Part shown: positions 54,952 through 63,155 of the stretch, piece after piece
Layout: the number at the start of each line of letters is the position of its first letter
Numbering within the stretch: position 1 is the first letter of the stretch
NCBI RefSeq assembly: GCF_004349065.1
Contig: NZ_SMKZ01000037.1
Span: 1 to 64,000, forward strand
Source: Jiangella asiatica
GTDB lineage: Bacteria > Actinomycetota > Actinomycetes > Jiangellales > Jiangellaceae
Reading direction: 5' to 3'
Length of the DNA: 64,000 bases
Program-made: the position numbers and the translations under genes
Notes under the pieces: generated by a model
The model's database searches: none
What the model was told of the DNA's origin: nothing
The model's input: only the letters and a program-made list of their open reading frames with translations

Positions 54952-56267
54952 GGCCGCGACCTGGAGCCCGCGGGCGTGTTGAGGTGCGACTGCGACTCGC
55001 GCAGTGAGTTCAGCGGGCCGCCGACCGTCCAGTACGTGCGGCCGGCGACCAGCAGCTCCTCGGCGGGGAACTTCGTGATGACCTCGCAGCCGTCGGCGGT
55101 CACCACGACCTCCTCCTCGATGCGGGCTGCGGACCAGCCGTCGGCCGCCGGCCAGTAGGTCTCCAGCGCGAAGACCATGCCCTCCTCGAGCACCTCCGGG
55201 TGGTCCAGCGACACCAGCCGGGAAAAGATCGGCTTCTCCCAGATCGACAGCCCGACGCCGTGGCCGTACTGCAGCGCGAACGCCGCCTCCTCGTCGGCGA
55301 ACCCGAACTCCTCCGCCCGCGGCCACAGCGAGACGATGTCGGCCGTCGTCGCGCCCGGCTTGACCGAGGCGATCGCGTGGTCGATGAACTCGCGGCAGCG
55401 GGTGTACGCGTCGCGCTGGGCCGGCGAGGCGCTCCCGACGGCGAACGTGCGGTAGTAGCAGGTGCGGTAGCCGTTGTAGCTGTGCAGGATGTCGAAGAAC
55501 GCCGGGTCACCGGGCCGCAGGGCCCGGTCGCTGTAGACGTGTGGGTGCGGCGAGCAGCGCTCGCCGGAGATCGCGTTCACGCCCTCGACGTACTCGCTGC
55601 CCAGGTCGTAGAGGACCTTGCTCACCACGCCGACGCACTCGTTCTCGCGCACGCCCGGGCGCAGGAAGCCGTACAGCTCGTCGTAGGCCGCGTCGACCAT
55701 GGACGCCGCCTGGGCGAGCAGCGCGATCTCGTCCGGGGTCTTGATGCGCCGGGCGTCGAGGAAGACCTGCTGCCCGTCGACGACGTCGACCTTCTGGGCG
55801 GCGAGCGCGGCCAGCACCGGCATCTCGGCGAGGTCGACGCCGACGGGGTCGTCCTGCAGGCCGTGGTCGGCGAGCACCCGGGCGATCTTCGCGGCGACGT
55901 CGTCGGCGATGCCGGCGTCGGGGTGGAACGCCCCGCGCAGTGTCGAGATGCCCGCGCGGGCCCGCTGGGTGCCCTCCAGCCACGGGTTGTACAGCTGGTG
56001 GTGGCGGGCCGCGGAGCCGAAGTCCCACACGATCGGCTCTCCGCCGCGGGGAAGCAGGGCGAAGCGGATGAGCTTGTCGATCGCCCAGGTGCCGATGTGC
56101 GTGGACGTCATGTAGCGGATGTTGGCGAAGTCGAAGGCCAGCAGCGCGCCCAGGTCGGAGCGGTCGAGGGCGGCGCGGAGGCGGTCCAGCCGCTCGCGGC
56201 GCAGCCGGTCGAGGTCGATGCGCTCTTCCCAGTCCACCGCGTTCGGTCCGTAGGTGCGTATCGACAT
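54948..56267 (-). CDS. M24 (pita-bread) metallopeptidase-like protein with an altered metal site
   Basis: A 439-residue protein of the Xaa-Pro aminopeptidase/creatinase family. An N-terminal creatinase-like domain (MTSTHIGTWAIDKLIRFALLPRGGEPIVWDFGS) precedes the pita-bread fold. Of five classical metal ligands, the first Asp (AFFDILHSYNGY), His (QYGHGVGL) and two Glu (VFALETYW; ARIEEEVVV) are present, but the second Asp is Cys in GYRTCYYRT. Relatives with such changes hydrolyse or lyse small molecules (the group includes DMSP lyase DddP and ectoine hydrolase) rather than peptides. It is first in the minus-strand operon and divergent from the XRE regulator. Confidence 0.85.
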   Translation of the reverse strand: MSIRTYGPNAVDWEERIDLDRLRRERLDRLRAALDRSDLGALLAFDFANIRYMTSTHIGTWAIDKLIRFALLPRGGEPIVWDFGSAARHHQLYNPWLEGTQRARAGISTLRGAFHPDAGIADDVAAKIARVLADHGLQDDPVGVDLAEMPVLAALAAQKVDVVDGQQVFLDARRIKTPDEIALLAQAASMVDAAYDELYGFLRPGVRENECVGVVSKVLYDLGSEYVEGVNAISGERCSPHPHVYSDRALRPGDPAFFDILHSYNGYRTCYYRTFAVGSASPAQRDAYTRCREFIDHAIASVKPGATTADIVSLWPRAEEFGFADEEAAFALQYGHGVGLSIWEKPIFSRLVSLDHPEVLEEGMVFALETYWPAADGWSAARIEEEVVVTADGCEVITKFPAEELLVAGRTYWTVGGPLNSLRESQSHLNTPAGSRSRP

Positions 56268-56415
56268 TGCGCAGGCACCTCCTCGGCGGCTCGCCGAGTG
56301 GTCCGCTTCGGCGAGAACCTGTTCAGCTACACTTACCATCCGAGTTAAGCGAAGGCTGGCGACGACGTCAAGCCGGCAACCTTCGATCAATCGCGTTCAA
56401 CGGAACGGAGGCCAC

Positions 56416-57171
56416 GTGAGCCCGTCGGCAGTGCCCCCGATCGGGGAGCGCATCCGCCAGGAGCGGATGCGCAAAGGTGTGAGTGCCCGCGGCCTCGCGC
56501 GCGAGATCGGGGTCTCGGCCAGCCTGATCTCCCAGATCGAGACCGACAAGAGCCAGCCGTCGGTGAGCACCTTGTACGCCATCACCACAGCGCTGGGGAT
56601 CTCGATCGAGGACATCTTCGCCACAGCCGACGGCACTCCCGACGACGGTTCGGAGGCCGCGGCCGAGATCACGCCGGATGCGTCCGCCACCGCCGCGGTC
56701 CCGGTGGGCGACTCCGCGGCGCCGGTCGACGACGCGGCTGGTGAGCCGTCCGGCGACGACGGCCTGGCCGCGGCCTCCGTCTCGGGGACGATCAGCGCGT
56801 TGCGCGTCCTCGGCTCCGCCCGCCGACGCGTCGGCCCCGTCGTTCGCCCGTCCGAACGCGAGGTGCTCACGCTCGACTCCGGCGTGACGTGGGAGTTGCT
56901 CGGCCAGGTGCCCGACGCGCACACGGACTTCCTGCGCATCACCTACCAGCCCGGCGGCTCGTCGTCGAGCTCCGGCCTGCTGATGCGGCACTCCGGCACC
57001 GAGTACGGCCACGTGCTCAGCGGTGAGCTGGTGCTGACCCTCGGCTTCGAGGAGCACCACCTGCGCGCCGGTGACTCCGTCTCATTCGACTCGACCATGC
57101 CGCACGCCTACCGCAACGATGGCACCGAACCCGCCATCGGCATCTGGTTCGTCCTCGAGCGTTCCGCCTGA
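56416..57171 (+). CDS. XRE-family regulator with C-terminal cupin sensor
   Basis: A 251-residue regulator. The N-terminal XRE HTH is IGERIRQERMRKGVSARGLAREIGVSASLISQIETDKSQPSVSTLYAITTALGISIEDIF. After a Pro/Ala/Asp-rich linker of ~80 residues the C-terminal cupin has MRHSGTEYGHVLSGELVLTLGFEEHHLRAGDSVSFDSTMPHAYRND. This architecture is common in regulators of amino-acid or amine catabolism. It is divergent from the M24-led operon and upstream of the amidohydrolase genes, so it is the likely controller of both. GTG has GGAACGGAGG upstream. Confidence 0.92.
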   Translation: MSPSAVPPIGERIRQERMRKGVSARGLAREIGVSASLISQIETDKSQPSVSTLYAITTALGISIEDIFATADGTPDDGSEAAAEITPDASATAAVPVGDSAAPVDDAAGEPSGDDGLAAASVSGTISALRVLGSARRRVGPVVRPSEREVLTLDSGVTWELLGQVPDAHTDFLRITYQPGGSSSSSGLLMRHSGTEYGHVLSGELVLTLGFEEHHLRAGDSVSFDSTMPHAYRNDGTEPAIGIWFVLERSA

Positions 57172-57473: not shown

Positions 57474-59210
57474 ATGAGTGAGGATGGACACCAGTCCGAG
57501 CGAGGTCCGGGAGCGTCCCGGCGCGATGTGCTCAGGACGGGAGCGGTCGCGGGAGCTGCGGCAGCCATGGCGGGTGTGGGAGCTGGAGTGACCCACGCCG
57601 CGGAGAACGAGGCCACCACGACCGCCGGCGCCGCCCTGACGGCGGTTCCCGGGGTTGCGGGCGACACCGACCTCGCGCTGGTCAACGGCCGTATCCACAC
57701 GATGGACGCGAACGACGCCGTCGTGTCGCACGTCCTGATCAGGAACGGCCGGTTCATCGCGGTCGGCAACGGGCCCGTCCGCGCACAGGGCCGGCCGTTC
57801 GCCGTGGTCAACCTGCGCGGCCGGACGGTGGTTCCCGGCATCGTCGACAACCACAACCACATCGTGCTCATGGGCAACCGGCCCGGGCACCACACCCCGC
57901 TCGAGAACGCCCAGAGCATCGCCGAGGTCCAGGAGACCTACGCACGGCGGGCCGACCAGATCCCCAGCGGCGCCTGGATCACCACCATCGGGGGCTTCCA
58001 CCGCAACCACCTCGTCGCGCCGGACCTGCCGCCGCGCCTGCCGACGCTGACCGAGCTCGACGCGGCCGCGCCGGACCACCCCATCTACCTCTCCGAGAGC
58101 TTCAGCGGCCCGTCCGCCACCAACTCCGCCGGGCGCGCCTTCTTCACAGCACGAGGAATCCCCGTCGGCGACGACGGCTTCATCGCGGCCGGCAACCCCA
58201 CCGGCCGGGCCACGCTCGCACTGCGCCAGACCCTGCTCACGGCCGACGAGCGCAAGCGCGGAGCCGTCGACGCGCTCGCCCACGGCCTGAGCCTCGGCGT
58301 CACGACACACCTGGACCAGGGCGCCTTCCAGGCGACCGGAACGCCGTCGGACGGTGCCGCCCACGAGGACAACTTCACGATGCACCTGCCGTTCCTCGAG
58401 CTCCTCGAAGAGGGCCGGCTGGACGCCCGGCTGCGCATCAATTTCCTGCACATGGAGTCGGATCAGACGACCCCGGAGCTCGCCGCGCGGTTGCGTAACG
58501 CGTTCCCGTTCTTCGGCGGCGACCTGGTCCGCACCGGGGGCATCGGCGAGTTCATCGCCCAGGGCACTGGGCCGGCCAGCCCGTTCCTCGCGGCGGCACG
58601 CAAGGTCGCGGCGGCCGGCTGGCGAGCGGAGGTCCACTCGCTCAGCCAGACCGACTTCCAGCAGGAGATCCAGGCGTTCGAGACGGTGCACGCGCAGACG
58701 CCCATCTCCGACCTGCGCTGGGTGGACGCGCACGTCCCGTTCATCACCGAGGAGTACGCGAAGCGGCTCGACGCGCTGGGCGGTGGGCTGTCGCTCACCG
58801 GCTGGCGGTACCTGGCCGGCTCGCCGGCGCAGAACGGTCCACCGTTCCGGATGATCGTCGACAGCGGCATCCACGCCGGCATGAGCTCCGACGGCATGCA
58901 GATCGCGCCGATGAACCCGTGGCTGCACATGTACTACGCCACCACCGGCCGCAACGCGCGCGGCGTCGTCATCAACGCCGGGCAGCAGATCACCCGGCAG
59001 GAGGCGCTGCGGCTCTACACCCGCGACAATGGCTGGTTCCTGCGCGAGGAGGACGAGCTCGGTTCCATCGAGGCGGGCAAGCACGCCGACCTCGCCGTCC
59101 TGGACCGCGACTACTTCACCGTCCCCGACGACGACCTCAAGCGCCTCCGCTCGCTGTTCACCGTCGTCGGCGGCCGCGTCGTGCACGACCCGCGGAGGTG
59201 GGTGCGATGA
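57474..59210 (+). CDS. Tat-exported YtcJ-type amidohydrolase, copy 1
   Basis: A 578-residue enzyme with a Tat signal (SRRDVLRTGAVAGAAAA). The amidohydrolase-3 fold begins DLALVNGRIHTMDAND and carries HxH in VPGIVDNHNHIVLMGN, a His in AEVHSLSQTDF, a His in RWVDAHVPFI and the Asp in MSSDGMQIAPMNPWL. The usual carbamylated-Lys region (K-x-F-x-D-G) reads VRTGGIGEFIAQG, so a Glu may bridge the metals instead. It likely hydrolyses an amide, ester or ureide outside the cytoplasm. Its stop overlaps the start of a paralogue (ATGA). Confidence 0.88.
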   Translation: MSEDGHQSERGPGASRRDVLRTGAVAGAAAAMAGVGAGVTHAAENEATTTAGAALTAVPGVAGDTDLALVNGRIHTMDANDAVVSHVLIRNGRFIAVGNGPVRAQGRPFAVVNLRGRTVVPGIVDNHNHIVLMGNRPGHHTPLENAQSIAEVQETYARRADQIPSGAWITTIGGFHRNHLVAPDLPPRLPTLTELDAAAPDHPIYLSESFSGPSATNSAGRAFFTARGIPVGDDGFIAAGNPTGRATLALRQTLLTADERKRGAVDALAHGLSLGVTTHLDQGAFQATGTPSDGAAHEDNFTMHLPFLELLEEGRLDARLRINFLHMESDQTTPELAARLRNAFPFFGGDLVRTGGIGEFIAQGTGPASPFLAAARKVAAAGWRAEVHSLSQTDFQQEIQAFETVHAQTPISDLRWVDAHVPFITEEYAKRLDALGGGLSLTGWRYLAGSPAQNGPPFRMIVDSGIHAGMSSDGMQIAPMNPWLHMYYATTGRNARGVVINAGQQITRQEALRLYTRDNGWFLREEDELGSIEAGKHADLAVLDRDYFTVPDDDLKRLRSLFTVVGGRVVHDPRRWVR

Positions 59211-60934
59211 CCGACATCAAGCGACGCGACCTGCTCAAGGGCGGTGCGGCCGGTGCCGCCGGTATCGCCGCCGGTGCGGCCGCCGTCACCACCGGGCTGG
59301 CAACGACGGCGTCCGGCGCATCTCCGGCGAACCCGGACACCGGTTCGGCCGCCGACCTCGTCCTGGTCAACGGGCGCATCCACACCATGGACGACGACGG
59401 CACGGTCGCGCGGGCGGTGGCCATCCGCGACGGCCGGTTCGTCGCCGTGGGGATCGCCGTCCCGAACCCCGGCAGGCACGGCCGGCGGATCGACCTGGGC
59501 GGCCGCACGGTCGTGCCGGGACTGATCGAGAGCCACACGCACTTCGTGAGCCTGGCCAACCGGCCCGGCTACCACGTGGCCCAGCTCGAGCTGGCGGCGA
59601 ACCTCGCCGAGGTCCAGGACCACCTCGCGGCACGCCGCCCGGACGTGCCGGAGGGCCAGTTCATCACCGCGCTCGGCGGCTGGCACCCGCGGCAGTGGGC
59701 CGAGCAGCGGTTGCCCACCCGCGCGGAGCTCGACGCCGCCGTCCCCGACCGGCCGGTGTTCCTGCTGCAGACCTTCGCCGGCCCGTCGGTCACGAACAGC
59801 CTGGGCAAGCAGTTCTTCGAGACCGTCACGTCGCCGCTGGCCGGGCCGGTCGCCGTCGCCGACAACGGCGCCATCGCCTCGGGTCTGCCGACGACGACGG
59901 CGCTCTACCACCTGCGGGTGCGGCAGACGTTCGACGACAAGCGGCGTAGCGCGCTGGACGCGATGGCGTTCTCCGCGCAGGTCGGCGTCACGACGGTGCT
60001 CGACCAGGTGATCCCGCCGTCGCCGGGGCCGCTGACGCCGAACCAGGCGCTGTCGGCCCTCGACCACTACCGCATGTACGACGCCTGGCTGTCCCTGCAC
60101 CGGGAGCGACGAGCCTTCATCCGGCTGCAGGCCAATTTCCTGCACAACCAGGGGAACATCCCGGCGCTCGGGGACCTGGCGAACCAGCTGCCGGAGCTGC
60201 GCGAGCGGCTGCGGCACCAGTTCCAGTTCTTCGGCGACGACATCGTTCGCACCGGCGCGATCGGGGAGTGGGCCGCTCCGATCGGCGCCGGCGCCGTGTG
60301 GTTCGAGGCCCAGCGGCTGGTCGCGCAGGCGCGGTGGCGCAACGAGAACAGCCCCGGCAACCTCGCCGCGCTGGCCCAGGTGGTCGACGCGTACGAGGCG
60401 GTGGACGCCGAGTTCGGCATCACGGACCTGCGCTGGGGCGTGCAGCACATCAACCAGGCGACGCCGGAGCTGCTGGCCCGGCTCAAGGCGTTGAACTGCG
60501 GCGTCTCGATGTCGGGGTTCCGCTGGCTGCAGGGCAACCCTGGTCCGAACCCCGTCGGGCCGCCGTTCCGGATGATCGTCGACAGCGGCATCCCGGCCGG
60601 CCTGCACGAGGACGGCGTGCACATCGCGCCGCACAATCCGTGGTTCGCACTCCACTACGCGACGACCGGGCTGAACGTGCTGGGCCAGCCGATCAACGGC
60701 GACCAGCAGCTCACCCGGGTCGAGGCGCTGTACGCCTACACGCGGGCGAACGCCTGGTACCTGAACCGCGAGGACCGGCTCGGCTCCATCGAGCCGGGCA
60801 AGCTGGCCGACCTGGTGGTCCTCGACCGCGACTACTTCACCGTCTCCGACGCCGACCTGCGGCGCACGAAGCCCGTGCTCACCGTCGTCGGCGGGGAGGT
60901 CGTCCACGACACCGGCGAGGTGCCGGTGCGGTGA
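59207..60934 (+). CDS. Tat-signal YtcJ-type amidohydrolase, copy 2 (one His ligand replaced)
   Basis: A 575-residue tandem paralogue of the preceding protein, with a Tat signal (KRRDLLKGGAAGAAG). It shares ADLVLVNGRIHTMDDDGTVARAVAIRDGRFVAVG, LIESHTHFVSLANRPGYH (HxH), VRTGAIGEWAAP and the C-terminal HEDGVHIAPHNPWFALHYATTG. The segment aligned to AEVHSLS in copy 1 reads RNENSPG, so that metal-binding His is Asn. The second His region RWGVQHINQ is kept. Translation coupling and paired retention suggest a heteromeric or specialised partner rather than a redundant enzyme. Confidence 0.87.
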   Translation: MTDIKRRDLLKGGAAGAAGIAAGAAAVTTGLATTASGASPANPDTGSAADLVLVNGRIHTMDDDGTVARAVAIRDGRFVAVGIAVPNPGRHGRRIDLGGRTVVPGLIESHTHFVSLANRPGYHVAQLELAANLAEVQDHLAARRPDVPEGQFITALGGWHPRQWAEQRLPTRAELDAAVPDRPVFLLQTFAGPSVTNSLGKQFFETVTSPLAGPVAVADNGAIASGLPTTTALYHLRVRQTFDDKRRSALDAMAFSAQVGVTTVLDQVIPPSPGPLTPNQALSALDHYRMYDAWLSLHRERRAFIRLQANFLHNQGNIPALGDLANQLPELRERLRHQFQFFGDDIVRTGAIGEWAAPIGAGAVWFEAQRLVAQARWRNENSPGNLAALAQVVDAYEAVDAEFGITDLRWGVQHINQATPELLARLKALNCGVSMSGFRWLQGNPGPNPVGPPFRMIVDSGIPAGLHEDGVHIAPHNPWFALHYATTGLNVLGQPINGDQQLTRVEALYAYTRANAWYLNREDRLGSIEPGKLADLVVLDRDYFTVSDADLRRTKPVLTVVGGEVVHDTGEVPVR

Positions 60935-60951: not shown

Positions 60952-62259
60952 ATGAGGACCCGTTCGCTGACCGCGCTGTCCGCGACCGTGGCGCTGACGC
61001 TGCTCGTCACCGCCGCCTGCACGGACGACGACGAGCCCAGCGCCGAGCCGTCGCCGGGCGCGGCGGAGAGCCCCGCGGGCGACGCCGGAGCGCCGAGCGG
61101 GGATCCGATCGTCGTGGGCTCCACCCTCTCGCTGACCGGCGCCTTCGGGCCGACCGGGATCATCCACCAGATCGCGGGCGAGCAGTTCGTCGAGCAGCTC
61201 AACGCGAGCGGAGGGCTGCTCGGCCGGCCGGTCGAGTGGACGGTGCTGGACGACGAGTCCGACCAGGCCCAGGTCACCGCGCTGTACGAGCGGTTGATCG
61301 GCCAGGAGGAAGTCGACCTCATCATCGGGCCGTACGCCACGCCGAACATCATCTCGGCCATGGCGGTGGCCGAGCGGCACGGCTTCACCATGCCGCAGCA
61401 CACGGCCGTGCTGGCGCCGCTGATGACGTACGAGTGCCAGTTCCCGGCCTGGTCGATCGGGCCGGAGCCGAACTCGTACGTCCCCGAGCAGGTCTTCGAT
61501 GCGCTCGACAGCCTGCCCGAGCCGCCGCAGCGGGTCGCGTTCGTCACCAACCAGGGCGGGTCGACCGACTTCATCAGCTACGGCTCGCCCGACGACGACG
61601 GCGACCCGGGCGCCGTCCAGATCGCGCAGGACCGCGGCTATGAGGTCGTCGCCGAGATCCGGTACCCGCCGGACACGTCCGACTGGGCACCGATCGCGGC
61701 GCAGATCCGCGACGCCGATCCCGACTTCGTTTTCAACAGCGGCCTCGCCGTCGACCCCGTCAACCTGCTGCAGGCGATGGAGCAGCTGGGTTTTCGGCCG
61801 CCGATGATGTTCAGCCTGTTCCCCGCGCCGGGACCGCTGCTTGGCCTCGGAGACGTTGCTGACGGGCTGCTGTCGGTGTCGATCTTCGAGCCGAACGACG
61901 CGCTGATCCAGGCCGCCGGCCCGGACGCTCAGGCGATCGTCGACGAGTTCCAGTCCCGCGCCGAAGCCGAAGGGCTGCCCTACACCTCGTTCGAGACGCA
62001 GGCGACCGCGTCGTGGAACGCCTGGGAGATCCTGGTGGCCGCCGTCGAGGGCAGCGGCGGAACCGATCAAGAGGCGATGTGCGACCACTTGCACGAGAAC
62101 GGCGCCGACACCACGTTCAGCGGCCACCTCGAGTTCGACCCCGACGACAACAACTTCTGGCCGAGCACCCAGGGTCTCAAGCAGATCCAGGCCGGCGACT
62201 GGGTCATGGTCTGGCCAGCCGACCGCGCGGCTGCGCAGCTCCAGCCGCCGGTCGGCTGA
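60952..62259 (+). CDS. branched-chain-amino-acid-type ABC substrate-binding lipoprotein (LivJ-like)
   Basis: A 435-residue Peripla_BP_6 receptor. The signal peptide ends LLVTAAC (lipobox) and a Ser/Pro/Glu linker follows. The two-lobe fold begins DPIVVGSTLSLTGAFGPTG and carries QLNASGGLLGRPVEWTVLDDESDQAQV and LIIGPYATPNIISAMAVAE. The family binds branched-chain amino acids, amides, urea or aromatic acids. GAGGAGGGAG precedes the ATG. It follows copy 2 of the amidohydrolases by 17 nt, so the enzymes probably make the ligand outside the cell for this importer. Confidence 0.92.
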   Translation: MRTRSLTALSATVALTLLVTAACTDDDEPSAEPSPGAAESPAGDAGAPSGDPIVVGSTLSLTGAFGPTGIIHQIAGEQFVEQLNASGGLLGRPVEWTVLDDESDQAQVTALYERLIGQEEVDLIIGPYATPNIISAMAVAERHGFTMPQHTAVLAPLMTYECQFPAWSIGPEPNSYVPEQVFDALDSLPEPPQRVAFVTNQGGSTDFISYGSPDDDGDPGAVQIAQDRGYEVVAEIRYPPDTSDWAPIAAQIRDADPDFVFNSGLAVDPVNLLQAMEQLGFRPPMMFSLFPAPGPLLGLGDVADGLLSVSIFEPNDALIQAAGPDAQAIVDEFQSRAEAEGLPYTSFETQATASWNAWEILVAAVEGSGGTDQEAMCDHLHENGADTTFSGHLEFDPDDNNFWPSTQGLKQIQAGDWVMVWPADRAAAQLQPPVG

Positions 62260-62285: not shown

Positions 62286-63155
62286 ATGACGACACTCCAG
62301 GCCGCGCTCAGCGGAGCGCTCGTCGGGGGCATGTTCGCGGTGATGGCCGCGGGCCTGTCCCTGACGTGGGGCATGCTGCGGGTCATCAACCTGGCGCACT
62401 TCGGGATGATCCTCGTCGGCGCGTACCTGACCTTCGAGCTGGCGACGACGTGGGGCATCGACCCGATCCTCACCATCGCGGTGACGGTGCCGCTGATGTT
62501 CCTCGCCGGCGCCAGCCTGCAATGGGCCTTCGACCGGCTCGGCGTCGAGGAGTTCGCGTCACTGCTGGTCAGCTTCGGACTGCTGATCATCGTGATGCAG
62601 ACCGTGAGCAACGTCTGGAGCGCGGACTTCCAGCGGATGAGCGGCGACGTGAACCCGTACGCGACGCAGGCGGTGTCGGTGGGGCGGTTCGTCTTCCCGG
62701 CCCCGACGCTGATCGCGTTCGTGTTGGCGGTGGTGCTGGTCGTGTCGGCCGATCAGGTCCTGCGCCGGACGTTCGCCGGCCGGGCGTTGCGGGCGTTCGC
62801 CGAGGACCGCGCCGTGGCGTCGGCGTTCGGCATCGACCATCGCCGGCTCGGCATGGTGCTCGCGGGGCTGTCGGCGGCCTCCGCTGCGGTCGCCGGCATG
62901 CTCTTCGCGCTCGGCAACGCCGTGACCCCGTCGACACCGTTCGAATGGATCGGGGTGGTGTTCGCGGTAGTGATCCTCGGCGGGATCGGGCAGGTCACCG
63001 GCGTGCTGCTGGCCGGCGTGCTGGTGGGGACGCTTTCGGCGGTGGTGTCGGCCACGTGGTCGCCGGCGCTGTCGCCCCTGGTGCTGTTCTCGGCGATCGT
63101 CCTGGCACTGCTGTTCCGGCCCTACGGCCTGCTCACGGTGCGAGGTGCGCGATGA
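62286..63155 (+). CDS. branched-chain-amino-acid-type ABC permease (LivH-like)
   Basis: A 289-residue permease with about eight helices. LivH signatures include GALVGGMFAVMAAGLSLTWGMLRVINLAHFGMILVGAYLTF and the coupling region RRTFAGRALRAFAEDRAVASAFGID. GIGQVTGVLLAGVLVG follows near the C-terminus. It pairs with the next gene (ATGA overlap). Confidence 0.93.
   Translation: MTTLQAALSGALVGGMFAVMAAGLSLTWGMLRVINLAHFGMILVGAYLTFELATTWGIDPILTIAVTVPLMFLAGASLQWAFDRLGVEEFASLLVSFGLLIIVMQTVSNVWSADFQRMSGDVNPYATQAVSVGRFVFPAPTLIAFVLAVVLVVSADQVLRRTFAGRALRAFAEDRAVASAFGIDHRRLGMVLAGLSAASAAVAGMLFALGNAVTPSTPFEWIGVVFAVVILGGIGQVTGVLLAGVLVGTLSAVVSATWSPALSPLVLFSAIVLALLFRPYGLLTVRGAR

Follow-up and report, generated by a model that had tools for sequence, protein, structure and literature searches.

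Two genes for amidohydrolase-type proteins lie in tandem on the forward strand of the window, the stretch of 64,000 nucleotides of Jiangella asiatica DNA analysed here, which belongs to a contig of 64,234 bases in a genome of 7.0 Mb (G000). The closest matches to the window were found in Jiangella anatolica, J. ureilytica, and J. aurantiaca. Copy 1 (57474..59210) encodes 578 amino acids and copy 2 (59207..60934) encodes 575, and the stop codon of the first overlaps the start codon of the second in the tetranucleotide ATGA (59207..59210), with AGGTGG just before it. The two proteins are 47% identical, and both match the Amidohydro_3 domain (PF07969) across the barrel, with E-values of 7e-58 and 5e-54 and scores of 197.6 and 185 bits against a curated cut-off of 29.7. 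Each begins with a twin-Arg motif (RRDVL and RRDLL) followed by an Ala/Gly-rich stretch. A first, sequence-only reading of this DNA had described tandem amidohydrolases coupled by an ATGA overlap, both carrying Tat signals; the reading frames, the identity, the domain matches, and the overlap bear out the coupled tandem, and the twin-Arg N-termini agree, by motif, with the proposed signals. The pair probably represents two neighbouring metal-hydrolase-like enzymes that are secreted and made together by this soil actinobacterium.

AlphaFold2 models gave confident barrels (mean pLDDT 88.2 for copy 1 and 90.4 for copy 2) and, together with the matches to solved structures, support the amidohydrolase (beta/alpha)8 barrel fold for both copies. 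The best solved matches were 3IGH and 3ICJ, and the triazine hydrolase TrzN (3LS9) was among the next.

Upstream of copy 1 lies a gene for an HTH-cupin regulator of the PuuR-like type (56254..57171, forward strand). Directly downstream of copy 2, on the same strand, follow genes for the Peripla_BP_6 binding protein of a Liv-type ABC importer (60952..62259) and for the first of two Liv-type permeases (62287..63155); the ATPase genes fall past the end of the window and are visible in relatives (L036:14812-18223). The opposite strand carries genes for a relative of M24 peptidases, the alpha and beta subunits of a 2-oxoacid dehydrogenase E1 component, a cupin protein, a short-chain dehydrogenase (SDR), and a relative of hydroxyisobutyrate dehydrogenase, and among them a third amidohydrolase gene, which is of the PRK08204 type (NCBIfam NF006056; 51574-52938, reverse strand). 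Transporter genes recur beside amidohydrolases at other loci, including one with a solo copy-2 gene (L065). Judged from this context, the neighbourhood looks like a system that takes up and degrades a compound with an amide or lactone group.

The metal site of copy 2

Amidohydrolases are classified by their metal ligands, of which the His of strand beta5 is a standard one. When family members from loci of Jiangella and other genomes were aligned with MAFFT, the ligands of copy 1 appeared in the order HxH, Glu, His, His, Asp (H127/H129, E359, H388 at beta5, H420 at beta6, and D473 at beta8), which includes the HxH, His, His, and Asp already recognised in the sequence-only reading. The order in copy 2 is HxH, Glu, Ser, His, Asp. 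Copy 2 indeed keeps the rest of the ligands, as had been proposed (H110/H112, E354, H414, and D469), and the third metal-ligand His is absent. The proposal that Asn stands in its place was correct as to the loss but not as to the residue: Ser382 (codon 60350-60352) aligns with the His, and N381 (codon 60347-60349; both codons 60347..60352) lies one position upstream. Four relatives that contain the His (L044, L047, L060, and L064) read RNEN-H-SL, compared with RNEN-S-PG in copy 2; replacement by Asn was rejected because these relatives place Ser at the His position. A sequencing error was also rejected, since the same RNENS is found in four other Jiangella-type genomes. In the structure models, H388 of copy 1 lies within a predicted strand (385-389), Ser382 of copy 2 just past one (379-381), and H467 of copy 2 at the end of another (464-467), two residues before the Asp ligand; the predicted strand ends fit the ligand assignment.

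In a FastTree phylogeny built from 90 family members plus two outgroup sequences (92 in total), all 38 proteins devoid of the beta5 His formed one clade with a support of 1.0, with members from Actinobacteria, Acidobacteria, Betaproteobacteria, and one Rokubacteria bin. The beta5 column of this copy-2 clade holds Ala 18 times, Ser 13 times, Arg five times, and Asp twice; His was found in 0/38, compared with 52/52 of the His-containing homologues, which, with the loss on one branch, exceeds chance. As all His-less proteins fall into one clade that spans several phyla, the loss most likely happened only once and is old. Thus, the earlier statement that the second copy had lost a ligand holds for the His itself but is misleading as a history, the loss being ancient and common to all 38 proteins. 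A recent tandem duplication with subsequent decay was dismissed on the basis of the tree, in which the copies sit in separate old clades, each with relatives elsewhere.

The remaining ligands are well kept within the copy-2 clade, with HxH and the beta4 Glu in 38/38 proteins, the Asp in 36/38, and the beta6 His in 34/38; in both groups HxH and Glu show no variation, except that one truncated sequence does not extend to the HxH. In two members (L085 and L093) the beta6 His is also gone, and in two others (L124 and L125) the loss of the beta6 His is accompanied by a change of the beta8 Asp to Asn, with HxH and Glu staying in place. Additional residues are typical of the clade. The Asn directly before the beta5 position (N381) and His472 are invariant (38/38 for the former), and 35/38 proteins have a His at position -2 relative to the Asp ligand, where beta8 ends (H467 of the H467-E468-D469 motif, codons 60605..60613; HxD). 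Whether a different His might occupy the vacated site could be judged from the alignment as well: a conserved beta8 His does exist, but HxD is also found in eight His-containing proteins, all of one subgroup and all with the beta5 His retained, so that H467 is not simply a moved beta5 ligand. The same subgroup weakened the idea that the beta8 His compensates for the lost one.

Between the copy-1 and copy-2 clades, 13 columns were fixed differently, of which seven lie at most five residues from a ligand position, compared with 57 of 506 core columns in the background (hypergeometric p = 1.6e-4, which is descriptive only because the sequences are related). This clustering looks like a remodelled active site and not like decay. 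Pairwise dN/dS values among four Jiangella genomes were 0.17-0.31 for copy 2 and 0.17-0.26 for copy 1.

Both copies lack the KxFxDG motif and carry GIGE[F/W] instead, as noted before, with the Gly aligned to the Lys. The Glu of this motif is present in 38/38 proteins of the copy-2 clade and 52/52 His-containing homologues. It had been suggested to replace the bridging Lys; a Glu in that position is not established, because two alignments (MAFFT and profile-profile) place it immediately C-terminal to the Lys found in classical YtcJ proteins (GGIK-VFLD and GALK-LWLD).

Occurrence and coupling of the two copies

A copy-2 protein was identified in 36 genomes, 31 from one search and five from surveys of the genus and class of the window. 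A His-containing relative was also present in 31 of these 36, a proportion that is biased upwards, since several of the five genomes devoid of the relative are incomplete bins from metagenomes and since either of the two search patterns could detect a genome that has both proteins. The two genes were arranged in tandem in nine genomes, divergently adjacent in two, about 5-10 kb apart in five, and at another locus or contig in 15; in the other five (G413, G421, G431, G426, and G432) no His-containing relative was found at E <= 1e-60. A link between the two proteins, as opposed to independent occurrence in most genomes, is therefore supported by their co-occurrence but not by adjacency, which applies to just 11/36. 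In the genus of the window, five of 12 genomes have both proteins and seven have neither. The class survey found members in this genus only, and the phylum survey in one of 396 genomes, the window's own. A search of plasmids yielded distant relatives only, with 27-30% identity.

Four other Jiangella-type genomes (L032, L033, L036, and L117) share the ATGA overlap, which also occurs at both junctions of an array in which three amidohydrolase genes stand in a row, His-less, His-containing, and His-less (L045:8058-13260). At three further loci (L042, L056, and L043) the genes are close to each other without overlap. In L117 (G001, from 9642 onward, reverse strand), the slot of copy 1 is filled by a mosaic gene that is ATGA-coupled to copy 2. 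The ends of its product are those of a Jiangella copy 1, being 80-95% (residues 1-120) and 88% (residues ~520-562) identical to J. anatolica, whereas its barrel is mostly 60-82% identical to proteins of the acidobacterial HxD subgroup. Recombination at this locus spared the signal and the terminal domain, and the gene stayed coupled to copy 2.

Other arrangements were also observed. In Virgisporangium ochraceum (L039:15664-19766), a copy-1 gene is followed downstream by two adjacent genes of the copy-2 clade. An Acidobacteria bin (L081:8336-18392) has five consecutive amidohydrolase frames, and the three that were aligned have Asn at the position of the beta4 Glu. Copy 2 of J. anatolica (L032:11740-11800) and of J. 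aurantiaca (L036:11728-11790) starts with MTGISRRGLLTGALAAN, which contains the twin Arg and a hydrophobic stretch that is unusually short compared with other copy-2 proteins.

Possible functions of copy 2

For the metallo bile salt hydrolase BwBSH1, an Amidohydro_3 enzyme that has been characterised, HxH and Asp are the predicted ligands of the alpha metal, and the other two His those of the beta metal (PMC13081902). The beta5 His is the normal holder of the outer beta metal, and its loss from copy 2 would leave the outer site vacant or much weakened. Since the rest of the active site is retained, a different, likely single-metal, centre is more probable than a broken copy, and the retained inner ligand set is most simply read as holding one metal. 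Amidohydrolases with a lone metal at the alpha site form a recognised class (PMC12017989). The interpretation favoured here, to which about an even chance is given (roughly 0.5), is that copy 2 is catalytically active as an amidohydrolase, probably with one metal in the alpha site, and that it works with copy 1 in an exported catabolic system served by a Liv-type importer. Copy 2 would hold its alpha metal via the buried HxH, the beta4 Glu, and the beta8 Asp; this metal would activate water alone, and the HxD His of beta8, possibly with the beta6 His, would position water or substrate. Copy 1, in which all ligands are present, would be a conventional enzyme. The two enzymes, co-translated and provided with Tat-type signals, would act alongside each other outside the cytoplasm, probably on distinct though related substrates or in successive steps, and the product would then be imported by the Liv-type ABC importer encoded next to them.

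Several observations are less comfortable for a single-metal enzyme. In TrzN and in mononuclear alpha enzymes of the imidazolonepropionase type, the beta5 His is itself a ligand of the alpha metal, and its absence is therefore unusual even for one-metal enzymes. Four clade members are also devoid of the beta6 His, two of them also of the Asp. BwBSH1 became inactive when any of six ligands, the beta5 His (H441) among them, was changed to alanine (PMC13081902); an enzyme that has lost this residue need not be active.

For these reasons alternatives have to be considered. Copy 2 might be a non-catalytic partner that joins copy 1 in a hetero-oligomer, where it would stabilise or regulate copy 1 or aid its export; this is judged rather unlikely. 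The translational coupling shared by five Jiangella-type genomes and found at both L045 junctions would suit such a role, as would the mosaic gene of L117, in which the barrel was swapped while both ends and the coupling were retained. The same applies to the His-containing relative found in 31/36 copy-2 genomes, in a family almost absent from other actinobacterial genomes, and to two Jiangella copy-2 proteins whose hydrophobic stretch behind the twin Arg is very short, as if their export relied on a partner. A precedent is provided by an inactive dihydroorotase needed for the assembly of Pseudomonas aspartate transcarbamylase, as cited in PMC4581275. However, copy 2 has retained its alpha-site ligands, and 15 genomes have the His-containing relative elsewhere, at a different locus or contig, while none was found in five. 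The dN/dS values give no sign of relaxed constraint, although a partner protein would be constrained too. The sequence-only reading had left the choice between a mononuclear variant and a catalytic/non-catalytic pair; the former has held up as the favoured reading, its metal number being a matter of inference, and the latter has lost ground with the near-invariant alpha ligands, the similar purifying selection on both copies, and the copy-2 genomes in which no His-containing relative adjoins.

A rearranged ligand set with two metals, in which H467 of beta8 or, by a local bulge of beta5, N381 stands in for the missing His, appears more doubtful still. Both residues are highly conserved in the clade, and H467 lies at the end of its predicted strand, two residues before the Asp, but HxD is combined with the beta5 His in the subgroup of eight, and Asn before the His occurs in His-containing relatives too; therefore, neither residue turns up only where it could compensate for a missing beta5 His. 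A changed chemistry of copy 2 (isomerase, hydratase, decarboxylase, or substrate binding, with one metal or none) would be in line with the clade-specific fixed residues near the active site, with L124 and L125, which keep HxH and Glu but lack the beta5 His, the beta6 His, and the beta8 Asp, and with the recognised class of metal-independent members of the amidohydrolase fold (PMC12017989), but it is improbable, as most of the clade keeps HxH, Glu, beta6 His, and Asp as a hydrolase would.

Comparison with known amidohydrolases

The Amidohydro_3 family is already known. No described Amidohydro_3 subgroup devoid of the beta5 His, and no paired amidohydrolases with a non-catalytic partner, were found in the literature searched, which covered few subscription journals. 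Tentatively, the copy-2 clade may represent an undescribed type of amidohydrolase metal site (HxH, beta4 Glu, no beta5 His, and beta8 HxD) that became fixed a single time and persists in several phyla, in most cases with a ligand-complete relative in the same genome, and in some actinobacteria coupled to it as an exported two-enzyme unit. With one loss and the rest kept under selection, the clade is a natural experiment on the minimum of ligands for the barrel. With the coupled Jiangella pair, the two possibilities for copy 2, an active enzyme with one metal and a partner protein for copy 1, could be told apart directly. Pfam annotation alone labels both copies as amidohydrolases and misses this difference.

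Of the known systems, YtcJ-like proteins (PF07969, COG1574) are closest: both copies match the Pfam domain over the barrel, share HxH, the beta6 His, and the beta8 Asp, and have 3ICJ and 3IGH as best matches by sequence and fold. Unlike these, they have no Lys of the KxFxDG motif but an invariant Glu one residue later, and copy 2 is devoid of the beta5 His. TrzN and imidazolonepropionase rank high among the solved fold matches of both models and share the one-metal chemistry that may well apply to copy 2, but their alpha metal uses the beta5 His, whereas copy 2 has no such His and instead an invariant beta4 Glu. BwBSH1 (PMC13081902) resembles copy 1 in its Pfam domain and in the order HxH, His, His, Asp; it differs from copy 2 in its predicted carboxylated Lys and its need for H441, neither of which has a counterpart there. 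The inactive dihydroorotase of Pseudomonas (PMC4581275) is an amidohydrolase relative without activity made together with an active partner; however, its partner is unrelated to it, whereas copy 2, in which HxH, Glu, and Asp are retained, adjoins its own paralogue.
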